Below, one piece after another: positions 168-39,669 of a DNA stretch of 43,143 bases. The stretch comes from a virus: the IMG/VR virus record IMGVR_UViG_3300043446_002534, positions 1-43,143 of that record, one strand, 5' to 3'. A program made the position numbers and the translations under genes. The notes beneath the pieces are model-generated. The model did not search any database and was not told the DNA's origin. It was given only the letters and a program-made list of their open reading frames with translations. Every line of letters begins with the position of its first letter. The stretch's first letter is position 1.

Positions 168-713
168 ATGGCTAATCTGACTACTCCGACTGGCGTTCTT
201 AATTTCCCTCAATTATTTGAGGCTGCGCCTAAATCTAAGGGCTCAGAGAAAAAGGTCTTCTCTGGCACGCTCACATTTGACGCGGCTGCGCGTAATACTC
301 AGGCGTATCGCGATTTAGAAGCGGCCGTCGAAGAGTGCGTGCAGGATCTTATAAAGAAACATAAAATCAAGCGCGAGAAAATCGACGTTGCATTGCGCGA
401 CGGCGACGAGAAGGCGGATAAGTATCCGTCTTACGCCGGGACGACATACATCTCGCCCTGGTCGATCACTCGCCCTGGCGTTATTGGCCCAGACAAAGAG
501 ACAATCTTTGACAAGGACGACGTGTATAGCGGCCAACTGGCGCGCTTTAACGTGCGCCCATTCGGCTGGGAATATTCCGGCAAGTATGGCGTGAACTTTA
601 ACCTCAATGGCGTGCAGATCCAGAAATTGGATTGCCCGCGCCTGGATGGTAAGGCGTCCGTCGAAAGCATGTTCGACGATGTTAAAATTTCGTCTAAAGC
701 AACGCCTTTCTAA
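168..713 (+). CDS. DUF2815 family protein, probable ssDNA-binding protein
   Basis: This 181-residue protein fits the phage DUF2815 family, described as an OB-fold-like ssDNA-binding protein of replication modules. Visible family features are the start 'TPTGVLNFPQLFEAAP', a central charged stretch, 'YISPWSITRPGVIGPDK' (residues 94-110), and 'DDVYSGQLARFNVRPFG' before a C-terminal beta-rich part. The ATG follows AAAGGATCTATT, an acceptable ribosome site. It stands just after the DUF2800-like tail, the usual gene order. It probably coats single-stranded DNA made by the polymerase-primase-helicase encoded at 35-39.7 kb. Binding activity is inferred from the family, not shown by a motif. Confidence 0.8.
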   Translation: MANLTTPTGVLNFPQLFEAAPKSKGSEKKVFSGTLTFDAAARNTQAYRDLEAAVEECVQDLIKKHKIKREKIDVALRDGDEKADKYPSYAGTTYISPWSITRPGVIGPDKETIFDKDDVYSGQLARFNVRPFGWEYSGKYGVNFNLNGVQIQKLDCPRLDGKASVESMFDDVKISSKATPF

Positions 714-1415: not shown

Positions 1416-1558
1416 TGTTGCCGCTAATGATGTTGATCCTGGCGTTATTGCTTATTTCAATGTCGTATCTTGACGCTGGATGGCTAATTTTTCTGCATTT
1501 AGTTTTGTCAGTGATGATTGGCGTTACGGCCTTTGTCTACGCTTATATTTATCGGTAG
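1412..1558 (+). CDS. Small two-helix membrane protein (48 aa)
   Basis: A 48-residue ORF starting at the ATG that overlaps the previous stop. It reads MMLPLMMLILALLLISMSYL, then 'DAGW', then a second hydrophobic segment of about 22 residues ending in YAYIYR. Two transmembrane helices with a tiny turn fill nearly the whole protein. Size and topology resemble a small holin-like or superinfection-type inner-membrane peptide, but it is far from the endolysin, so no function is assigned. Coupled start and coding context support it being real. Confidence 0.5.
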   Translation: MMLPLMMLILALLLISMSYLDAGWLIFLHLVLSVMIGVTAFVYAYIYR

Positions 1559-1574
1559 ACCACTGGAGACCTTG

Positions 1575-1982
1575 ATGACTTACGTTTTTCCTTACGTTGG
1601 ATCGGAGCAATTTGAAGCCGAGTATCGCTTGCGATCTTTAAATTTTACTCGCCCCAAAACTGCGCGGAAAAGACCGACGCAAAAACAAGCGGCTGTAATG
1701 CAGGCGTTGTCAGAGTATTCAGATAATCCAATGCCGCCATCTTTGAAAAAAATTTTATATGAGGTGGCCCGGGCGCATAATTTGAGCATCCCAGAACTCG
1801 TTGGTTCAGCAAGGCCGCGTTATAAAGTCAGCGCAAGGCGCGAGTTTGTTTACCGCGCAAGAAAAGAGACAAATAAATCGTTCCCGCAAATTGGTCGCGC
1901 CATTGGCAGGGATCACACAACTGCGATCCATCTTTTTCAGACATACGATGAAGGATTAGACGGCTTGAGCGTGAAGCGATGA
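1575..1982 (+). CDS. DnaA domain IV-like DNA-binding protein
   Basis: A 135-residue protein whose last 75 residues match the C-terminal DNA-binding domain of the replication initiator DnaA. It has 'ILYEVARAHNLSIPELVGSA' (60-79), 'SARREFVYRARKET' (86-99) and the DnaA signature GRDHTTAIHL (111-120). The DHTT residues contact the DnaA box in DnaA. There is no AAA+ ATPase domain, so it cannot unwind an origin by itself. It may bind DnaA boxes in the phage or host origin, either to recruit or to block replication. The start at 1575 is chosen because TGGAGACC lies just upstream. An extension to 1518 would overlap the previous gene. The next gene overlaps its stop by four bases. Confidence 0.8.
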   Translation: MTYVFPYVGSEQFEAEYRLRSLNFTRPKTARKRPTQKQAAVMQALSEYSDNPMPPSLKKILYEVARAHNLSIPELVGSARPRYKVSARREFVYRARKETNKSFPQIGRAIGRDHTTAIHLFQTYDEGLDGLSVKR

Positions 1983-2555: not shown

Positions 2556-3188
2556 ATGCAATCTTTTGAAACACTCGACTTTGACGCCTTGAGATCCCAC
2601 CTGGAGACCTCGAGCGAAAAACTGTCCGCCAAAGACCAGGAATTTGCATCTTCCTTACTGGAAAGCATCTGGCGGCGCGGATCGCCGACCGACAAGCAGC
2701 TTTATTGGGTTCGCGAGCTATGCAAGCGCACGCAGCCTAAAGTTCGCGAGACTGTCGAACTCGGCTCCCTGGAGGGCATTAACGCCCTTTTCAATCGCGC
2801 CTCGGCCGCTCTGAAGCGTCCGGCGATTGTCCTTGAGGCTGACAATACGCCAATCCGTTTGTCCGTCGCCGGCCCTGACGCTCGCGTCCCTGGATCAATT
2901 AACGTGACGTCCAACGGCTCGTTCGAGGATCGCACCTGGTTTGGTCGGATCTTGGCCGACGGCCGTTTTGAGGTCTCGCCTCGCGTCACGCCGCCTGCTT
3001 CGCTGATCGCCACGCTCAAGAGGTTCGCCTCCGAGCCGGCCCTTGTCGCGGCAGAATACGGGCGCAAGACGGGCTCTTGCTGCTTCTGCGCAAGAGAACT
3101 GACGGACGGGCGGTCTGTGTCGGTCGGATACGGCCCGGTTTGCGCCGAGCGTTACGGCCTCCCTTGGGGCGAAGCGCAAGCCGCTTGA
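2556..3188 (+). CDS. DUF6011 domain protein with C-terminal zinc-type motif
   Basis: A 210-residue protein. The C-terminus carries the DUF6011 pattern: cysteines 175, 176 and 178 in 'GSCCFCARELTDGRSVSVGY' and then 'GPVCAERYG' with C196, a small treble-clef-like metal site. The N-terminal 85 residues contain 'SPTDKQLYWVRELCKRT', typical of phage proteins that carry this domain. The middle may be beta-rich. Function is unknown; nucleic-acid binding is a guess from the zinc motif. It is driven by its own promoter (copy A). Its TGA stop lies inside the TTGACA of the following promoter. Confidence 0.7.
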   Translation: MQSFETLDFDALRSHLETSSEKLSAKDQEFASSLLESIWRRGSPTDKQLYWVRELCKRTQPKVRETVELGSLEGINALFNRASAALKRPAIVLEADNTPIRLSVAGPDARVPGSINVTSNGSFEDRTWFGRILADGRFEVSPRVTPPASLIATLKRFASEPALVAAEYGRKTGSCCFCARELTDGRSVSVGYGPVCAERYGLPWGEAQAA

Positions 3189-3214
3189 CAGCGTGTCCAC
3201 GTATCGCCTACATT
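3185..3214 (+). promoter_or_regulatory. Early promoter, repeat copy B, with CGTGTCCACG element
   Basis: TTGACA (3185-3190), an 18-base spacer and TACATT (3209-3214). CGTGTCCACG occupies 3192-3201, at the same offset as in copies A and D. Confidence 0.65.
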
Positions 3215-3222
3215 GAACAACG

Positions 3223-3263
3223 TGAGCCGACGTGACCAGCCGGCTCAATCTAACCAGGAGACC
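3223..3263 (+). promoter_or_regulatory. Leader hairpin and AGGAGACC ribosome site, copy B
   Basis: TGAGCCG (3223-3229) pairs with CGGCTCA (3241-3247), a perfect 7-bp stem with an 11-base loop. AGGAGACC follows at 3256-3263 and the ATG at 3267. The leader can be read in frame as SRRDQPAQSN, which wrongly extends the gene upstream. Confidence 0.65.
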
Positions 3264-3266
3264 AAA

Positions 3267-3880: not shown

Positions 3881-3956
3881 TTGACACTAGCGGAATGATT
3901 GCTTACGTTAGTTGTATCGGCCGACGTGACCAGTCAGCCCGACAAACTAGGAGACC
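3881..3956 (+). promoter_or_regulatory. Early promoter and leader, diverged copy C
   Basis: TTGACA (3881-3886), a 17-base spacer and TACGTT (3904-3909). A weaker hairpin follows (GGCCGA/TCAGCC with one mismatch, around the shared CGACGTGACCAG core), then AGGAGACC (3949-3956) and ATG at 3960. The CGTGTCCACG element is missing, so this copy may escape the control acting on copies A, B and D. Confidence 0.55.
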
Positions 3957-4763: not shown

Positions 4764-4772
4764 AAATAACGC

Positions 4773-4802
4773 TTGACAGCGTGTACACGCATCGCTTAGT
4801 GT
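4773..4802 (+). promoter_or_regulatory. Early promoter, repeat copy D, with perfect CGTGTACACG palindrome
   Basis: TTGACA (4773-4778), an 18-base spacer and TAGTGT (4797-4802). CGTGTACACG (4780-4789) is a perfect 10-bp palindrome at the same place as CGTGTCCACG in copies A and B. It is therefore the most symmetrical version of the putative operator. Confidence 0.7.
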
Positions 4803-4810
4803 AGCCGACA

Positions 4811-4850
4811 TGAGCCGACGTGACCAGCCGGCTCAGTCAAACAGGAGACC
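4811..4850 (+). promoter_or_regulatory. Leader hairpin and AGGAGACC ribosome site, copy D
   Basis: TGAGCCG (4811-4817) pairs with CGGCTCA (4829-4835) around the same 11-base loop as in copy B. AGGAGACC follows at 4843-4850. Confidence 0.65.
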
Positions 4851-4854
4851 AAAA

Positions 4855-10413: not shown

Positions 10414-10860
10414 TTAAATTGTAGCTAAACGAGCGGCAGGAACTTTCATCAATGCGCGCGGGTTCCAGCTTGTGATTAATGTCCAACTATCCTTGTAGAG
10501 ACCGCCACGATTGATGCGGTCATCGATCCACAGTTCTGTCATTTCCGCCGGATAACCGTTAGCTATATACCAGTTATAGGCATTTACTGCATTCGGAAAC
10601 GGCAAGTATTTACTCGGAACTGCAAACGCATCAACTGTATCGCCCGCTGATCGACTTGCAGGAGACAGAGTTATTTGTGCAGGATCTAGTCCCGCTGCGC
10701 GAATAATATCGTCCATTGTTGCGTAATGCGCGGCGTTATTAACAATCTCTGCCGCCTTCTCAGGTGCAACGCCAGCTTTGTGTAGCATTTCCGCAAGCAT
10801 GATTGCTTCTTGCGCGCCCGTCGTTACTGTATTCGGATCTGGTTTAGGTGCTTTAGCCAT
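10414..10860 (-). CDS. Hypothetical late protein
   Basis: A 148-residue protein that I do not recognise. The N-terminal half is helical ('QEAIMLAEMLHKAGVAPEKA'). The C-terminal half contains aromatic residues ('NAYNWYIANGYPAEMTELWI') and suggests a compact domain. Its ATG overlaps the stop of the DUF4239 gene (TAATG), and AGGAGAG precedes it. It may be a small virion protein. Confidence 0.5.
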   Translation of the reverse strand: MAKAPKPDPNTVTTGAQEAIMLAEMLHKAGVAPEKAAEIVNNAAHYATMDDIIRAAGLDPAQITLSPASRSAGDTVDAFAVPSKYLPFPNAVNAYNWYIANGYPAEMTELWIDDRINRGGLYKDSWTLITSWNPRALMKVPAARLATI

Positions 10861-11609
10861 TATTTCTCTCCTATCTCTTTCAATACCCGTCCAAAGGGTT
10901 CTATTGAAACTTGTATTAAGCCTTGCCGTGCGTTTTCAAATTCATTCGTAATGAAGGCGGTGCTTCCTACACAAAAGGCCACGGCTAATGAGGCGAAGAA
11001 GGCCACGCTAGATAAAGGCTCTGAGGATACGCCAATGCAGATAAAGATTGTTGAAAGCCACAAAGACAAAAGCAACGAAGTAAAAGCATAAGTGCCGTGA
11101 ATGGATAATGTCGCCAGCTTGTAACGGTCGAGGCTAATTCGACCCATTAAATCCAAAATAAACTTTTTTGTATTCGCTGCGATGCCAGGGTCTTTTATTG
11201 GCACTGGCAATGTCTGCAATTCAATTGCGAATTTCTCGGCATTCGTTCTATCTACGCCGCCCCACATAGCGTCAGGCGTTGAAAGAATATAACGCAAGTA
11301 GTCTCTAAAATCGGCTTGCGCTTGCTCGGCGGGCTTTCCGTAATAAGTCAATGCTCTGTCGAGTTGGACAGACAATGACGCCATATCGTCAATTGTGCGT
11401 TGCTTATTTAAAAAGCCCTCACGCGCCGCGCCGAGTTGCGACGACATAACAACAGACATGACAAGAATGAGCGGCAATGTCGCAAAACGAATTGAGCTTA
11501 TTGCATCATGAGAAAGATTAGGGAAATAATAATGCCGAATGTAAATGCCAGCATAATAGCTCACAATAGCAATTGTTATGAGGGAGAGGGCCGAAGCGAA
11601 ATTATGCAC
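10860..11609 (-). CDS. DUF4239 (bestrophin-like) membrane protein
   Basis: About 249 residues from the GTG at 11609. It has two N-terminal transmembrane segments ('LSLITIAIVSYYAGIYI' and 'IRFATLPLILVMSVVMSSQL'), then a helical cytoplasmic stretch with 'EGFLNKQRTIDDMASLSVQL', and two more membrane segments near the C-terminus ('LLLSLWLSTIFICIG' and 'SSVAFFASLAVAFCVGSTAF'). This topology and the ending 'ENARQGLIQVS..P' fit DUF4239 bestrophin-like proteins. Function in phages is unknown. An earlier ATG at 11714 would overlap the upstream gene by 113 bases, so the GTG is preferred, but the start is uncertain. Confidence 0.65.
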   Translation of the reverse strand: MHNFASALSLITIAIVSYYAGIYIRHYYFPNLSHDAISSIRFATLPLILVMSVVMSSQLGAAREGFLNKQRTIDDMASLSVQLDRALTYYGKPAEQAQADFRDYLRYILSTPDAMWGGVDRTNAEKFAIELQTLPVPIKDPGIAANTKKFILDLMGRISLDRYKLATLSIHGTYAFTSLLLSLWLSTIFICIGVSSEPLSSVAFFASLAVAFCVGSTAFITNEFENARQGLIQVSIEPFGRVLKEIGEK

Positions 11610-11883
11610 TGTCTTCCCCCAATGCCTTACGGGCTTGGCGTAGGTCGCCAACAGTTCCAGATGCAGACGCCATGTCGCTAACGTCATCAGGTATCTGTTC
11701 TGCGTAATAGGCAAATGGCTTTAACGCTTCCTTTAGTTCCTCAATCCGCTTTGCTTGCGCCTCTAGTGCGTCTGCCGCTTCGTGGCACACTGTGTCGTGC
11801 AGAACTTCAGTTTTTCCGTAAGTGCGGCAGACCCAATTTACCCCACGCAATCGTTTCACAAGTTCTAAATAATCAGCCATCAT
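11602..11883 (-). CDS. Ead/Ea22-like small phage protein
   Basis: A 93-residue protein with 'ELVKRLRG' at the start and 'CHEAADALEAQAKRIEELKE' in the middle, a coiled-coil pattern seen in many small phage proteins of the Ead/Ea22 type. It shares the 'EAADA.E' element with the preceding gene, suggesting related or duplicated modules. Function is unknown. The stop lies just inside the start of the DUF4239 gene. Confidence 0.55.
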   Translation of the reverse strand: MMADYLELVKRLRGVNWVCRTYGKTEVLHDTVCHEAADALEAQAKRIEELKEALKPFAYYAEQIPDDVSDMASASGTVGDLRQARKALGEDSA

Positions 11884-31767: not shown

Positions 31768-33723
31768 TTAAACCTTAAACCAAAGTGCGCCCTCAGTCGC
31801 AGTTCCAGTTGGGTCAGCCGTCGATACGGTTTGAACTGCAATCGCGCTGCCCGCGCTCGTCGCATATGTCGCTGTCGCAGCATGTGTCGCTTCTGTCGCA
31901 TGTGCGGCAACGCCGCTAATGCCTATACCCCAAGTGCCAGAAGCTCCCGTGCCAGTTTTCGTCGGAGCGTCAGTAATTCCATATCCAGCAATCGTGTTCG
32001 GCTTGCCCGTTATATCAACCCAAGCATTCGACCCCGCAGGGCCCGGGTCGCCTTTCGGCCCAGGAGCGGAAACAGAAACCCACTGCGCCGAATTTCCGTC
32101 ATTATACCAAGTATAAAGATTGCCATCTGTGCTATTCCACCAGGCATCTCCTTGAGATGGATTAGCAGGGGCTGTGCCGCTGATATCAAATCGCGTTGAC
32201 CCAGTATCGCCTTTTGGCCCTTGAGGCCCAGGAACCGTTGAGGCTGCGCCAGCAGGGCCTTGAGGCCCTTGAGGCCCAGGAACAGTTGACGCCGCTCCTT
32301 GATCGCCTTTAGGCCCTTGAGGCCCTTGAGGGCCAGCAATACCGTCTAACCCCGTGTCGCCTTTAGGCCCTTGAGCGCCCGTCGCGCCCGTCAACCCTTG
32401 AGGCCCCATAGGCCCTTGAGGCCCAGCAGGGCCTTTCATCTGACCAGCATTCACCCAGCCATGCGGTTGATCCGTCAATCCAGCCGGATCAGATCCAACA
32501 AACACATAAACATTGCCCGTCGGCTCATGATAAAGCGCCTGGTCAGCAAGCATCTGCCAATCAACGCTCGGATGCATATTCGCATCCCAACTCACTGGGA
32601 TAAATCCATTTGTCGGCAACTCAAGAGGATTGCGGCTAAAATGCCCAATCAACTTAGCAATAACGCCAGGAGCGCCATCCGTTCCCGAAATACCTTGAGG
32701 CCCAGTAGGCCCTTGAATGCCTTGGTCGCCCTGATCTCCTTTAGGCCCTTGAACGCCTTGAACGCCTTGGTCGCCTTTAGGCCCAATATTTCCTTGAGGC
32801 CCCGTCAACCCGATATCGCCTTTAGGCCCCGTCAATCCTTGAATGCCCTGAGGCCCCGTCAACCCAATAGGCCCTTGAGGGCCTACCGCCCCCGTGTCGC
32901 CCTTATCGCCCTTAACTCCTTGAGGCCCCGTCAACCCAACCCAAGAAGTCCCATTATAAATCAAAGGCGCATTAACCGTCGTATCAAAATACATCGCGCC
33001 CTTCTTCAAAGGCGTTCCGTCAATCATCGTCGTCGGAGCAGTCGCGCTATTGCCTAACCAAAATACCGTCAGCGTCCCAAAAGCATGGTCAATATGGTTC
33101 GCCCACCATCTCGCAGACCAATGCTCTCCGCTAATGCCCATCTGCGCCAGAATATTCGGCGGTATGGTGTCAGGCATATGCTCTGCCCAAGCATGGCTCA
33201 CATCAGCCCAAAGCTCGGCGGTATTCGCTGATTGAAGCGCATGATTTTCATCATTACTAATACGCGAGGCGACAGCATTCGCGTCAGCAAGAGCTTGCAC
33301 CGCATGCGCCTCTACTGAGGCTATTTTCGCAAGCGCAGAATTAGAATTAGCATCAAGAATATTAGCGGCGGCTTCCGCTCTCGCCGCGTCGCTCTGCGCG
33401 GCAGTCGCCGCATGAATAGCATCCTGCGCAGAGGATTGCGCTACATGCGACGCCGCATGCGTCCTTGAAACATCATCATGAATTTGCGTCTGGAAATCAT
33501 GCGCAATGTCGGAAATCAAATCCGGGGCGAGACTTTCCTTCGTGACGATCCCATCATGAAGACGCCCGTCAGATCTGCGAATGTCCTTGAGCTCTGCGTC
33601 AATCTCATTAACCGCCCGCCTGGTTTCTGCGAATTCCTCGTCAACCTTATCTCCTGGGAGAGGAACTGACGGGCGGCTGGCGCTCCAACTCGTGAAGCTA
33701 AACAATTTACTGAGACGCGGCAC
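31768..33723 (-). CDS. Tail fibre with coiled-coil and collagen-like repeats
   Basis: A 651-residue protein starting with GTG (GAGGA upstream). Residues 1-60 are likely the tail-binding head. Residues 60-190 form an Ala-rich coiled coil ('AAQSDAARAEAAANILDANS'). Residues about 265-345 and 430-520 are G-x-y collagen-like repeats ('GPQGPIGLTGPQGIQGLTGP'), separated by a globular insertion. The C-terminus 'VSTADPTGTATEGALWFKV' resembles the gene at 30056. It probably forms a trimeric fibre for host recognition. It precedes all packaging and head genes in the leftward block. Confidence 0.8.
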   Translation of the reverse strand: MPRLSKLFSFTSWSASRPSVPLPGDKVDEEFAETRRAVNEIDAELKDIRRSDGRLHDGIVTKESLAPDLISDIAHDFQTQIHDDVSRTHAASHVAQSSAQDAIHAATAAQSDAARAEAAANILDANSNSALAKIASVEAHAVQALADANAVASRISNDENHALQSANTAELWADVSHAWAEHMPDTIPPNILAQMGISGEHWSARWWANHIDHAFGTLTVFWLGNSATAPTTMIDGTPLKKGAMYFDTTVNAPLIYNGTSWVGLTGPQGVKGDKGDTGAVGPQGPIGLTGPQGIQGLTGPKGDIGLTGPQGNIGPKGDQGVQGVQGPKGDQGDQGIQGPTGPQGISGTDGAPGVIAKLIGHFSRNPLELPTNGFIPVSWDANMHPSVDWQMLADQALYHEPTGNVYVFVGSDPAGLTDQPHGWVNAGQMKGPAGPQGPMGPQGLTGATGAQGPKGDTGLDGIAGPQGPQGPKGDQGAASTVPGPQGPQGPAGAASTVPGPQGPKGDTGSTRFDISGTAPANPSQGDAWWNSTDGNLYTWYNDGNSAQWVSVSAPGPKGDPGPAGSNAWVDITGKPNTIAGYGITDAPTKTGTGASGTWGIGISGVAAHATEATHAATATYATSAGSAIAVQTVSTADPTGTATEGALWFKV

Positions 33724-34157
33724 GGGCAGTCCTCGCAGGCGAGCGGCGGGGCTGTCGCCGCAATTGCCGCCTTACCACGTCGTGGGACGCGTGTCCACGT
33801 CAGTCAATCGCGTAGGTAGGTACAGTTGAAAATTTGTGGGCGGTGCGGGCGTTTTGGGCGTTTTGAGCGTTTTGGGCGTTGCGGCTGAAATTTTGTGGGC
33901 GTTTTGGGCGTTGCGGCTGAAATTTCGCGGGCGTTTTGGGCGTTGCGGGCGTTGCGGCTGAAATTTCGCGGGCGTTTTGGGCGTTGCGGGCGTTGCGGCT
34001 GAAATTTAAAACTAGAAAATTTTCGCGTGGTGGCTGACGGCCATCTATCGCCCTCGCCGGCTGGGGGCCAGGGGTCACCCGGCCGCCCCAGGCCGCGTGT
34101 CCACGCCCGCGCCGCGCAGCGCGCTCCCCCCAGCAAGGCGATGATTGTTGTTACAAA
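33724..34157. other. Non-coding region with direct repeats (candidate pac/cos site or origin)
   Basis: 434 bases with no credible gene. It holds the 13-bp motif repeated four times in the 41-bp array, two copies of CGTGTCCACG (33790-33799 and about 34095-34104), and a GC-rich segment with long inverted repeats (34045-34095). On the minus strand TTGACT (33802-33807) lies just before the first CGTGGACACG, the same order as in the early promoters, so a promoter for the fibre gene is possible. Confidence 0.6.
33881..34007. repeat. 41-bp direct repeats containing GCGGCTGAAATTT
   Basis: GCGGCTGAAATTT occurs at 33881, 33913, 33954 and 33995. The last two intervals are exactly 41 bases and the first is 32, missing one 9-base GGGCGTTGC unit. 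Between copies run GGGCGTT(TT)/(GC) units, so the block is a nested repeat of G-rich heptamers. Confidence 0.85.
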
Positions 34158-35193: not shown

Positions 35194-38100
35194 TCAATCT
35201 TCAAACAATCCGAGCGTGCGCTTGGTGTTAGTTTTGTCCACCTCAGATTTCCACATATTCACGACAGACGGGTGACTGACGCCCTTAAACATAGCAGCCC
35301 GTCTACGCACGCCCCACAAAGAAACCTTCGCTCCGCCACCCTTATTTGCGCGGCAAATATGCTCCCAAGAATAGCGCCTCAACTGCGCCACGATCAGTTG
35401 CGGATCGAGATCATTTTTTATTCTTTTCGACAGCCTGGTCGTATTAATCGCCTCCGCCTCGATCTCTCCGACAGTAATGAGCGTGCGATCTGAGAAGATC
35501 CCCTCATCGCCAAAAATATGCTCAAACCATCGATCGAGTGGCGGCCTGGCGTGTTCTATCATCATCGCCTTTGCGTGCGTCATTGGCGGCGCAGCCATAG
35601 GATTAAAGCGCGACAAGTCTCTGTCTAACAGCCACCGATACAGCTTCGACAAGACGGCCCGCGACTTAAAGGCCCTGCCAGTCGCCTCGTAATACTCAGG
35701 CGCCTTCTTCTCAACGTCTGAGCCAATCACAAAATATCTGCGATCGTCTTCCGCGAGCGCCATTGCGTTCTCATGGTTTGACATAAGCACCCACGCCTGG
35801 AGATTGCGTATCTGATACGCCGGAATATTTTTCTCGTTGACGCGCGTGTATTCCTGGGCGGACGAAACAAGCGATTTCAGCCTCTCGTAAACGTCCTTCT
35901 TATGATAAGGCGGCAATTCTTCAACAATCACCAAGCGCGATTTCATATAATCGCTGAAGCCCTCATCGAGCACGCCAGCCGGGATTGATTTAACATTATG
36001 CTTGCCCAGGAGCTCAACGAGCGGCTGCAACATCAAATCTTTTCCAACGCCCTGCTTGGATCGCAGCAAGACGGCGAAATTGATCTTTTTCCCAGGATGC
36101 TTCACCAAAAAGGCCGCCCAGTCTAAAAAGAATGCGCGCTCATTATCATTCTCAACAATATACTCGACGTGATCCAGCCATTTACGCAAATCGGCGTCAT
36201 CGTCAGGCACGCTATCGAATGGGTAAGGATCTATAAATCCAGGCCGCCACTGATTATACGCGCTCATGCGCGCTCCATCCATATCAAGGGACGTCACAAC
36301 TCCATCGCCTGGCGCATATGTGATCAAATCAACAACGCGCCCGCCGTCATTAATGAAAACCGACGAGGCGGCCTTCATCCCAGACGCGCCAGCGTCAGCC
36401 AAGTCAGTGGCGATCATATTGAAGCCTGACTTAGTCAAAACTAATCCCGTCGAGATTTGTGCGAATTTCTCAACATTCTTAATCCACACAAAGTCCGACA
36501 TCTGCCCGTCAATATCCTCCCTCTCCCTGACAATATCGCCCGCAAGATCCTCCAGGCCCGTCAGGTCTTGATCGCCCACGGGATCATTGCGAAACATGAG
36601 GGCCGTAGCCTTGCCCTTCTCGTCAGGCGTCGCCAGGCCCTCAAGAAATCCATGCAAGTCCTTAACCGTGCGCCCTGCGCAATGCGCATGAAAGCATTTG
36701 AAGCCGCCACTCGTTACGTGATACCCGGCCTCAGTATTCCCGTCCGTATGCTGATCCGCCCAAGGGCATTCAATGGCGATAAATCCCTGCCGATTGATCC
36801 TGTAATCATGGATAGGCCATTTAACGGCCGAGAAGAGCGCAAGGATTGGGTCGGCTGCGAGAACTGACGTGTCCGTCCCTGCGCGCTTGATGCGCGCCTT
36901 GCTGTCCCTTTTAAAGGCCTCGTAAGCGCCCTGCGCAGCGTCAGAAATATCCACGCCAAGAATGCGCGCCAAGTCATCCTGGCCCAGCCTGGAGGCGCCT
37001 GGAGAGAATTTTACAAGCCTCGTTACAAATCCAGCCTTACTTGGATCTTTCTTTTTAAACGCCGCGCCATTTGGCAACCTGTAATAAGCCCCGGCGCCAT
37101 TCCCATCAGCCGCGCCAGATAATTTCTCGCTATTCTTAAAAGCGTCCCTGAGTATTCCCCAGACCGTAATATTCTCGATCGGCCGCGACAGCCAATAATG
37201 CCACTGGAAATTCCCGGCGCTCGTTTCGATAATCGCATTCGGCGGCCCAAAGGTCGCCTCAACAATATCAGCGCCGATCTTGGTTCCGACGTCATCAGCC
37301 ACCCACATATGAGCTCGAGCGAATGTCTCGTCGCTTCGCGTCTTTGCGTCAGGTTTTAGAGACGCCACGGAAATATAATTCGGGCTGTCGTCCATCATCT
37401 TCAGCAATTCAGATGGCGCAAAGCCTCCCGTCCAATTCCCCGCCTTGTCGCCTCCAGCCTGGAGCCAGCCGTGTTCAAAGAATTCACCAAACACGGCCCT
37501 GGCGTAAAATTCATTTGAGACATGAAACGGCAGGGGCGAGGTGGACACGGCGTCCTCCTGGGCCTGGCTTGTTGATACGTTATTCTCCACCACAATCTCC
37601 CCTTGTCCGTCTCGAGCCCCTTGATCTACTGTCCCGACCACAACGCCGCTCGCCCCGGGTTCTGGTCTCCTAACCGCCTGGCTGGCGTTCGCCGTTGAGG
37701 GGGCGACACCATCGCCGGGATTGGTCTCCTGGGCGACGTCGCTCCCGCCCCCCAATTCTTCAAATTCGTAATCATCAAGCGCGCCCCATGTGGCGCCAGA
37801 TTTGATGTCCCAAGTCAGAGGCGCGCTTGGTTTGAATTCCCATTCGCGCTCATACGGCAGGTCATTGAGCGTGTCGCGCAAGTCATGAATAAAAGCGTCA
37901 ACAACGCCAGACGGACAAAACCAATACAGGCCGTCGTGCAAATCCAGCGCAAGCCTCGCGCCGTATTTTTTCAACAATGGTTTAACGTGCTTGATCGCTA
38001 AAAATTTTTGGTCGGCGCCCGTACCTTGAACAGGAAAATTAATCGTCGTCGAATGCATCGACCATTCTTTATCTCCGCCCCAACCCTGGCGCATATTCAC

Positions 38101-39669
38101 GCGCCTGCCTCCAAACGTCTCAGCGAATTTTTGTGAGGCGCAAATATTTCTCTGCCTCTCCCAAAATTTCACAACGCCAGGATAGGCCGCGCGATACGCA
38201 GCATGAATATTCTCAGCCTCTGGCAATTCCATCGCCAGGCCCCAGTCAGTGCGCGCCTTCTGGCGCAGCTTCTTTGCGCTGGTGCGATAGCCGAGACTGA
38301 GGTTCGCTAATTTTCCAAGATTACGCGCAGCCTTTGCTTTTTTATCTCCAGCCTTATTGCCGGCGACGAGATCAGCGTAATTAATGCGCGCAATTTGCGC
38401 GCCCATGTAACTGTGCGGGTCTTCTCCAGGGCGACACAAATCCAACATGACGGGATCATTCGACGCAATCGCCATCCAGCGAAATTCTTGTGAACTTGCG
38501 TCGCTTTCCACCAACGTCATGCCTGGAGGCGCCATAATTAAATTGCGAAACTCGGCAGCCTTTGGAACTTGCTGAAGGGCGGCGCCAGAGGGTTTCTTTT
38601 CTTCAACAAATGCGCCCGCTTTATTTTTATTTGGACGAAGGCCCTTAACGCTGCCAGAGTATTGCACGCGTCCAGTGTAAGCCGCAAAGATGCGCGGCTC
38701 TGGGTGTGTCATGCCGTCCTCATTATATTCAAGACTTGCTTCAATCTGCGCAAGAAATCCTGACTGTCTATTGAGCGTATTTCTGAGTTCAGCAATTTTA
38801 GCGGCGCGCGGATCAATTAGACTTAATTCGTGCAAGACGTCCTTGTCCGTTGACGCGCCGCCACTCTCAGTCCTTTTGATTATTGGCAAGCCCCACGTCT
38901 CAAACAACAATACTGCGAGCTCTTTATTTGATCTTACGATTGCGCCATCAACGCCAATGTCTTTCAACTCTTGCATGAGTTCCGCTTCACGCGCGGCGAG
39001 CTTTTCTTTGAGGGGCTCAATGGTCGCGACATTTACTGGCAGGCCCTTAACGTGCGCCATCGCCATGAGGGGCAATGCTTCCGCCTCAATCAGCATGGCG
39101 TTGCGTTGCTTGTCAGTTAATTTCTCAAACCAAAATTTTCCAAGGCGCAAACAGAACTCAACATCCCTCTCGTTATATCTATGCAACTTTGCGCGCGCCT
39201 CTGGGGAAGCGTCATGAAAATCCACGCCGTCTTCGTATCCCGCTTCGTCAGGCCAGAGTTGCGCCACGCCCGCCTTCAACCCGTAGCTAAATCTTTTATT
39301 TAATGGCGTGTCGTATTCTGGAACGATTGTGGCGTGCTTCCAGATCAACATGCTGTCGAGAAACTTGGCTTTCATAACCAGTTCCTCAAGGCCGTAACCA
39401 ATCAACCAACCAATATCGAATGAGGCGTTGTGCGCCATTAAATAACAATCGCGCTGGATCGCATACTCGAGCATTTCCTTCATGTCTTCGCGCGTCGGAT
39501 TTAATCCGCCGCAGAATTTTGTTTTATTATTTTTACGCCCGGCCCAAACAAGAGAAGTCGCCCAAGATTTCTCTTGAGCGACCCTCCATGCTTGCAGTGC
39601 GTATTCTGGTTTTAGGCCGCTTGTTTCGAAATCGAAAGCAATGACCTTTTCATCGTTCCACGCCTGCAT
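35194..39669 (-). CDS. Fused 3'-5' exonuclease/family A DNA polymerase/AEP primase/SF3 helicase
   Basis: A single uninterrupted 1,491-residue protein. Exonuclease: D13/E15 in 'AFDFETSGL', D85 in 'MAHNASFD', Y165/D169 in 'YNERD'. Polymerase: motif A D390 ('LVESDASSQEF'), motif B R449/K453 with Leu457 at the position of E. coli Pol I F762, and motif C H578-D579. Linker: about 640-715, low complexity. Primase: AEP-like/RepB-type 'ARAHMWVADDVGTK' with D792/D793 and H824 in 'FQWHYWL', followed by a zinc-type motif C968, C992, H994/H996, C997. Helicase: Walker A 'SKQGVGKD' (K1210), Walker B E1250/E1251 in 'LVIVEEL', sensor N1298 in 'VLMSNHE', and Arg 1310-1311. It could prime, unwind and copy DNA from one chain. 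An internal GTG at 37548 may also give a 784-residue primase-helicase. Confidence 0.9.
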   Translation of the reverse strand: MQAWNDEKVIAFDFETSGLKPEYALQAWRVAQEKSWATSLVWAGRKNNKTKFCGGLNPTREDMKEMLEYAIQRDCYLMAHNASFDIGWLIGYGLEELVMKAKFLDSMLIWKHATIVPEYDTPLNKRFSYGLKAGVAQLWPDEAGYEDGVDFHDASPEARAKLHRYNERDVEFCLRLGKFWFEKLTDKQRNAMLIEAEALPLMAMAHVKGLPVNVATIEPLKEKLAAREAELMQELKDIGVDGAIVRSNKELAVLLFETWGLPIIKRTESGGASTDKDVLHELSLIDPRAAKIAELRNTLNRQSGFLAQIEASLEYNEDGMTHPEPRIFAAYTGRVQYSGSVKGLRPNKNKAGAFVEEKKPSGAALQQVPKAAEFRNLIMAPPGMTLVESDASSQEFRWMAIASNDPVMLDLCRPGEDPHSYMGAQIARINYADLVAGNKAGDKKAKAARNLGKLANLSLGYRTSAKKLRQKARTDWGLAMELPEAENIHAAYRAAYPGVVKFWERQRNICASQKFAETFGGRRVNMRQGWGGDKEWSMHSTTINFPVQGTGADQKFLAIKHVKPLLKKYGARLALDLHDGLYWFCPSGVVDAFIHDLRDTLNDLPYEREWEFKPSAPLTWDIKSGATWGALDDYEFEELGGGSDVAQETNPGDGVAPSTANASQAVRRPEPGASGVVVGTVDQGARDGQGEIVVENNVSTSQAQEDAVSTSPLPFHVSNEFYARAVFGEFFEHGWLQAGGDKAGNWTGGFAPSELLKMMDDSPNYISVASLKPDAKTRSDETFARAHMWVADDVGTKIGADIVEATFGPPNAIIETSAGNFQWHYWLSRPIENITVWGILRDAFKNSEKLSGAADGNGAGAYYRLPNGAAFKKKDPSKAGFVTRLVKFSPGASRLGQDDLARILGVDISDAAQGAYEAFKRDSKARIKRAGTDTSVLAADPILALFSAVKWPIHDYRINRQGFIAIECPWADQHTDGNTEAGYHVTSGGFKCFHAHCAGRTVKDLHGFLEGLATPDEKGKATALMFRNDPVGDQDLTGLEDLAGDIVREREDIDGQMSDFVWIKNVEKFAQISTGLVLTKSGFNMIATDLADAGASGMKAASSVFINDGGRVVDLITYAPGDGVVTSLDMDGARMSAYNQWRPGFIDPYPFDSVPDDDADLRKWLDHVEYIVENDNERAFFLDWAAFLVKHPGKKINFAVLLRSKQGVGKDLMLQPLVELLGKHNVKSIPAGVLDEGFSDYMKSRLVIVEELPPYHKKDVYERLKSLVSSAQEYTRVNEKNIPAYQIRNLQAWVLMSNHENAMALAEDDRRYFVIGSDVEKKAPEYYEATGRAFKSRAVLSKLYRWLLDRDLSRFNPMAAPPMTHAKAMMIEHARPPLDRWFEHIFGDEGIFSDRTLITVGEIEAEAINTTRLSKRIKNDLDPQLIVAQLRRYSWEHICRANKGGGAKVSLWGVRRRAAMFKGVSHPSVVNMWKSEVDKTNTKRTLGLFED
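37546..37559 (-). promoter_or_regulatory. Internal in-frame start: AGGAGG and GTG inside the replisome gene
   Basis: AGGAGG (37559-37554) lies five bases before a GTG (37548-37546) that is in frame, at residue 708, exactly between polymerase and primase parts. A protein from here would be 784 residues. Use in the cell is inferred, not shown. Confidence 0.45.

Follow-up and report, generated by a model that had tools for sequence, protein, structure and literature searches.

A single open frame encodes polymerase, putative primase and helicase domains

We analysed a 43,143-nucleotide stretch of viral DNA, IMG/VR record IMGVR_UViG_3300043446_002534, referred to here as the window. Translation revealed a stop-free frame of 1,491 residues on the minus strand (39669→35194); the plus strand across the same interval is packed with stops. 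A preliminary description of this DNA had placed a family A polymerase (PolA), an AEP-type primase and an SF3 helicase in one protein at these coordinates, which hold with the strand now given as minus. Pfam, alignment and fold matches agree with the polymerase and helicase, matches in relatives point to the primase, and the one-chain frame is confirmed at the level of sequence. Its features and those of neighbouring genes are collected in Table 1, where L268 and L398 denote two fused relatives described below.

Table 1 Features of the one-chain replicase gene and associated genes in the window
Feature	Position	Strand	Evidence or remark
Whole gene, PolA - AEP primase - SF3 helicase, one chain	35194..39669	-	Single open frame; profile matches in both halves
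3'-5' exonuclease domain, residues ~1-200	39070..39669	-	Invariant columns D13, E15, D85, Y165, D169 (DEDDy); Klenow and Pol theta fold matches
Family A polymerase domain, residues 217-629	37783..39021	-	PF00476; D390, R449, K453, Y461, H578, D579; model, Foldseek
Disordered A/G/S/P/Q-rich linker, residues ~633-713	37531..37773	-	Low pLDDT; weak likeness to L268 linker
AGGAGG (37554-37559) and in-frame GTG codon 708 (37546-37548)	37546..37559	-	Possible relic or live internal start
RepB-type AEP primase domain (putative), residues ~715-905	36955..37527	-	Alignment of 36; RepB_primase in relatives; model strands pLDDT 83-88
Zn-binding motif, residues 968-997	36679..36768	-	Invariant in 36 sequences
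SF3 helicase domain, residues ~1165-1372	35554..36177	-	DUF5906; NrS-1 helicase 6k9c by sequence and fold
C-terminal tail, residues 1373-1491	35197..35553	-	Low model confidence
gp2.5-type SSB	168-713		Scan of window ORFs
DnaA C-terminal (DnaA-box-binding) domain protein	1518-1982	+	PF08299 E 2e-13
Upstream gene, 137 aa	39675..40088	-	Same direction; ends 5 nt before replicase start
Upstream gene, 73 aa	40085..40306	-	Kept in L268 (55%) and L398 (37%); in shared synteny

Searches with the two halves and with the full length, as proposed in the preliminary description, returned PolA and SF3 matches, but no phage or plasmid record covers 80% of the protein. An exact-peptide search of the full-length protein in IMG/VR gave no match, and a full-length search of 385 genomes of Alphaproteobacteria (the class of Bartonella) and 398 of its phylum gave unfused helicase matches only.

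Elsewhere in the window, an 83-nt repeat unit on the plus strand (2472-2554, 3182-3264 and 4770-4852, with a shorter copy at 3920-3956) precedes small early genes. Its elements are promoter-like boxes (TTGACA/TAGTGT), a hairpin of the GAGCCGAC...GCCGGCTC kind and a ribosome-binding site, AGGAGACC. A bestrophin-like membrane protein is encoded next to the lysis genes (10860-11714, minus strand).

The amino-terminal half is a Klenow-like polymerase with a proofreading domain

Residues 1-632 correspond to a Klenow-like PolA with a DEDDy exonuclease. DNA_pol_A (PF00476) matches residues 217-629 with an E of 5e-40, motifs A, B and C accompany the 3'-5' exonuclease, and a model of this half, with a mean pLDDT of 81, matched PolA-family structures in Foldseek (E 2e-26), the fold matches including Klenow, Bst and Pol theta. 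All DEDDy exonuclease and polymerase residues are present. The exonuclease positions picked out from the sequence earlier (D13/E15, D85, D169) are conserved, with Y165 completing the DEDDy set, and the polymerase residues D390, R449/K453 and H578-D579 were likewise found in place. No 5'-nuclease domain was matched in this half. The closest named PolA relatives are those of Xanthomonas phage Xp15 and Acinetobacter phages Effie and HHU4 (about 28-30%), and a GTDB scan with the PolA yielded only distant Bartonella PolA-like ORFs.

The carboxy-terminal half combines a putative RepB-type primase region with an SF3 helicase

The back half was aligned over its whole length with 35 relatives, giving 36 sequences. 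RepB_primase is matched in 26 of the 36 (best E 2e-8), and on the strength of these relatives we assign residues ~715-1000, the primase and Zn region, as a putative RepB-type AEP; the window protein alone matches at residues 783-823 with an E of 0.046, below the cut-off. Invariant residues in the primase region are D792, D793, S817, Q822, W823, Y825, R864, P866 and K872. The aspartates D792/D793 named in the preliminary description are thus among the invariants, but its H824 is not conserved, although S817, Q822, W823 and Y825 around it are; the canonical SxH histidine is absent from the AEP region and Q822 takes its place. A fold search gave no match for the AEP core by itself. The C/H zinc motif described there is borne out by six invariant residues, C968, H974, C992, H994, H996 and C997, which would include the Zn ligands.

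DUF5906, an SF3-type family, matches residues 1202-1311 with an E of 1e-12, and the helicase is closest to that of NrS-1 (6k9c) both by sequence (2.8e-19) and by fold (5.8e-14). G1207, G1209, K1210, D1211, N1298, D1309, R1310 and R1311 are invariant and E1251 is conserved. The region has the fold of an NrS-1/D5-type SF3 helicase along with its Walker A, acidic B, sensor-1 Asn and Arg finger. K1210, E1251 and N1298 had been proposed previously together with E1250, which is not conserved. The initial reading depended on AEP or SF3 homology in this half, where SF3 was matched directly and RepB_primase in the relatives. The structure prediction suggested at that stage is less certain here than for PolA, with a moderate model of the C half (mean pLDDT 61, pTM 0.42).

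PolA and primase-helicase are usually separate neighbouring genes

Among 101 loci encoding both halves, the two are separate same-strand neighbours in 99. PolA comes first in 90 and the primase-helicase in nine, one locus has them on opposite strands, and the window is the only fusion; about 430 loci contained no second fusion of PolA to AEP-SF3. Separate genes in the order PolA then primase-helicase are found in MW202483, MW202496 and phiM5, whereas in Xp15 (gp46-gp48), Effie and HHU4 a separate primase-helicase gene lies upstream of PolA, in contrast to the fused gene of the window.

Phylogenetic trees placed the window PolA with Xp15-type PolAs (support 100/100) and the back half with stand-alone AEP-SF3 proteins of the other gene order (98/97). 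An AU test rejected placing the window PolA with the PolAs neighbouring such AEP-SF3 genes (p = 0.0001). The halves belong to different PolA and back-half clades and do not derive from one known adjacent pair.

Several long PolA frames were considered as further fusions and set aside. Those in L304, L307-L309, L314-L318 and L326-L329 have internal insertions instead, LAGLIDADG-like or intein-like where inspected (LAGLIDADG-like in L327). Like L309, L314-L318 and L326-L329, L092 (3575-5950) has a PolA of the same clade with a large in-frame insertion, here intein-like. The candidates in L375 (1647-4337) and L376 (2562-5252) proved to join uracil-DNA glycosylase (UDG), 3'-5' exonuclease and PolA, rather than a primase, in one 897-residue frame. 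In L185 (6831-9746), a 972-residue PolA frame has about 380 extra residues and is directly followed by an AEP-SF3 gene.

Two syntenic relatives carry one-chain proteins with a different back half

PolA-clade-directed scans uncovered two more one-chain proteins, of 1,339 residues in L268 (IMGVR_UViG_3300042317_001150) and 1,362 residues in L398 (IMGVR_UViG_3300044922_000436), whose PolAs are 50% and 45% identical to that of the window. Their back half consists of PF09250 Prim-Pol, PriCT-2 and AAA_25, and gave no match to AEP-SF3 profiles. Each record holds one PF09250 and no second, and window-type AEP-SF3 was matched neither in these records nor in ten unfused relatives; L268 is not covered to 80% by any phage record. 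The three genomes share an integrase, excisionase, repressor, RuvC resolvase, small upstream gene, TerS-like gene and tail-fibre-like N-terminus, and the fusion occupies the same position in each. With these syntenic one-chain relatives, the fusion is not accidental.

The tail-fibre-like protein of the window (31768-33723, minus strand, 651 residues) has collagen-like GPQGPKGD repeats and an N-terminus conserved in L268 and L398. The corresponding frame in L398 (11738-15244) exceeds 1,100 residues and has only the N-terminus in common with it. The tail-fibre gene of the window is separated from the TerS-like gene by tandem 41-nt repeats (GGGCGTTTTGGGCGTTGCGG...; 33837-34007).

It is most improbable that a missing stop or a frame error in the metagenomic contig merely ran two neighbouring genes together. 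Such an assembly or sequencing artefact would suit the separate arrangement in nearly all surveyed loci and the fact that an AEP-SF3 back half in fused form is known from one contig. Yet the base composition of the linker by codon position is coding-like and the halves belong to different PolA and helicase clades; an error is also unlikely because in two other, independent contigs, from syntenic phages, PolA, primase and ATPase are fused in frame at that position.

In a larger PolA tree the three fused PolAs group together with moderate support (92/82) and the window pairs with L268 (94/95). The same pair received 97/98 in a smaller tree, which included L305 (a very long branch, probably the wrong ORF, left out of the larger tree), and a quick tree did not resolve the two. 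We consider it likely that the window belongs to a temperate tailed phage with a one-chain replicase, that its lineage already possessed a fused Xp15-type PolA-linker-primase-ATPase, and that the back half was exchanged for AEP-SF3 in the window. The simplest history starts from an older PolA-Prim-Pol-AAA_25 chain with its back half swapped in the window lineage, a direction of exchange that we infer. An independent fusion, in which an Xp15-type PolA joined a downstream AEP-SF3 by stop loss, apart from L268 and L398, would be helped by the prevalence of the PolA-first order and by the limited support for the fused clade, but seems unlikely when set against the identical position in a syntenic genome, the sister placement with L268 in both trees and some likeness between the linkers (weak for the window and L268, reached by 30 of 5,000 shuffles).

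Exchange behind an already fused PolA invites a broader proposal, to which we give about even weight: that the lineage keeps PolA and linker as a platform and swaps everything behind them, the primase-helicase half, between classes that are not related (Prim-Pol with a RecA-fold AAA_25 versus RepB-AEP with SF3). If both motors form rings and these differ in polarity, as would be expected from their families, one and the same PolA would be attached to motors on opposite strands of the template.

A strong candidate ribosome-binding site lies at the junction

Residues 638-712 are predicted to be disordered (pLDDT 24-31 in the structure model). Near the end of this linker, AGGAGG stands 5 nt ahead of the GTG of codon 708, and its SD energy (-10.3 kcal/mol) is the strongest among the gene's 103 in-frame internal start codons. 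An SD of this strength occurs at 4 of 562 internal starts in 25 genes, codon 708 included, and none of the window's listed gene starts has a stronger one. GTG708 sits 10 residues ahead of an SN(T)EF block, at the point where the free homologue L043 begins. The L268 junction has weak start sites only, and in L398 codons 601-680 are devoid of ATG, GTG and TTG; with no in-frame start codon at its junction, L398 must therefore be made as one chain only.

Judging from these sequence features, the AGGAGG/GTG may be the start of the captured gene itself. We tentatively entertain a further step, that the AEP-SF3 gene brought along its ribosome-binding site when it was captured and that initiation at GTG708 would still yield a free primase-helicase beside the full chain, the free form perhaps doing most of the unwinding. 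The rank of the site within the gene, its coincidence with the L043 start and the poorer junctions of L268 and L398 would all favour two products, but comparable SDs arise by chance elsewhere in the genome.

A putative mechanism for coupled replication

Beyond the open frame, its domains, conserved catalytic residues, synteny and relatives, which are observed, the activities of the protein, its assembly into hexamers and the coupling between its parts are put forward as a proposal. SF3 helicases of the NrS-1 type are hexamers that translocate 3'-5'. The SF3 domain would accordingly be expected as a hexameric ring unwinding the fork, the AEP domain would lay primers, and PolA, on a tether of about 75-80 flexible residues, would extend them with proofreading; a tether of this length would hold several polymerases at each ring. 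The gp2.5-like SSB and the DnaA-C-domain protein probably assist, and GTG708 may additionally provide free primase-helicase. DnaA boxes, in the origin of the phage or of the host, are possible binding sites of the DnaA-C-domain protein.

The domains might instead act apart, with PolA replicating while AEP-SF3 serves chiefly in origin firing and priming, or with AEP as the replicative prim-pol and PolA used for repair. NrS-1-type AEP-helicases can synthesise DNA alone (PMC10423840; PMC12205980), and a DnaA-C-domain protein is also present in the phage. We nevertheless think such a division of labour improbable, as the catalytic and proofreading residues of PolA are intact and no further polymerase turned up in the window ORFs scanned. 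These ORFs yielded no second primase or helicase either.

Comparison with known one-chain replicases

Plasmodium PREX uses a Toprim/Twinkle-type primase-helicase. Like the window protein, it unites PolA and exonuclease with primase and helicase in one precursor, and the apicoplast polymerase shows weak sequence similarity to the window PolA half; neither Toprim nor DnaB/Twinkle has a Pfam match in the window protein, which falls outside the PREX type. The PREX-like layout with another primase and helicase class put forward in the preliminary description is right in that the classes differ, but the arrangement is less unprecedented than was implied, in view of two phage proteins. The most telling points lie outside that description: the sister phages that join this PolA to another primase-ATPase, the separate genes found in most loci and the candidate start at codon 708.

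In GP55 of lactococcal phage 1706, helicase, AEP, 3'-5' exonuclease and PolB lie in one chain with all activities demonstrated, a combination that its authors in 2025 called unprecedented (PMC12205980). The window protein matches this content, helicase, AEP primase and proofreading polymerase in one chain, as far as predicted domains go. Its layout differs, since GP55 has the helicase N-terminal and PolB C-terminal, whereas PolA is N-terminal in the window. The 1,606-residue polyprotein of Pyrovirus OS3173 has a DUF927 helicase/primase N-terminal to PolA, unfused in sister viruses (PMC7689252). It resembles the window protein in chaining a phage PolA with 3'-5' exonuclease to a helicase/primase-like region, but that region is N-terminal rather than C-terminal, and with no Pfam match to DUF927 the window protein is not of the Pyrovirus DUF927-PolA type.

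The closest solved structure, the NrS-1 primase-polymerase-helicase (6k9c), has an SF3-type helicase C-terminal to AEP, as in the window. NrS-1 is without PolA and its AEP is its own replicase, whereas a complete PolA stands ahead of the AEP in the window, where AEP is not the sole polymerase domain. In L268 and L398 the one-chain protein contains the same PolA and sits at the same syntenic place; they differ in carrying PF09250, PriCT-2 and AAA_25 in place of RepB-type AEP, Zn motif and SF3. We found no report in the open-licence literature of PolA fused either to AEP and SF3 or to Prim-Pol and AAA_25.

With one-chain replicases one can ask if tethering alone suffices for a replisome or if specific contacts are required, and here nature has seemingly put a different priming and unwinding half behind one polymerase, which allows a direct bench comparison. 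Such enzymes may copy DNA without added primers and would be useful for isothermal amplification. They have precedents in GP55, OS3173 and PREX, from each of which the window protein differs by its combination of polymerase, primase and helicase or by their order.
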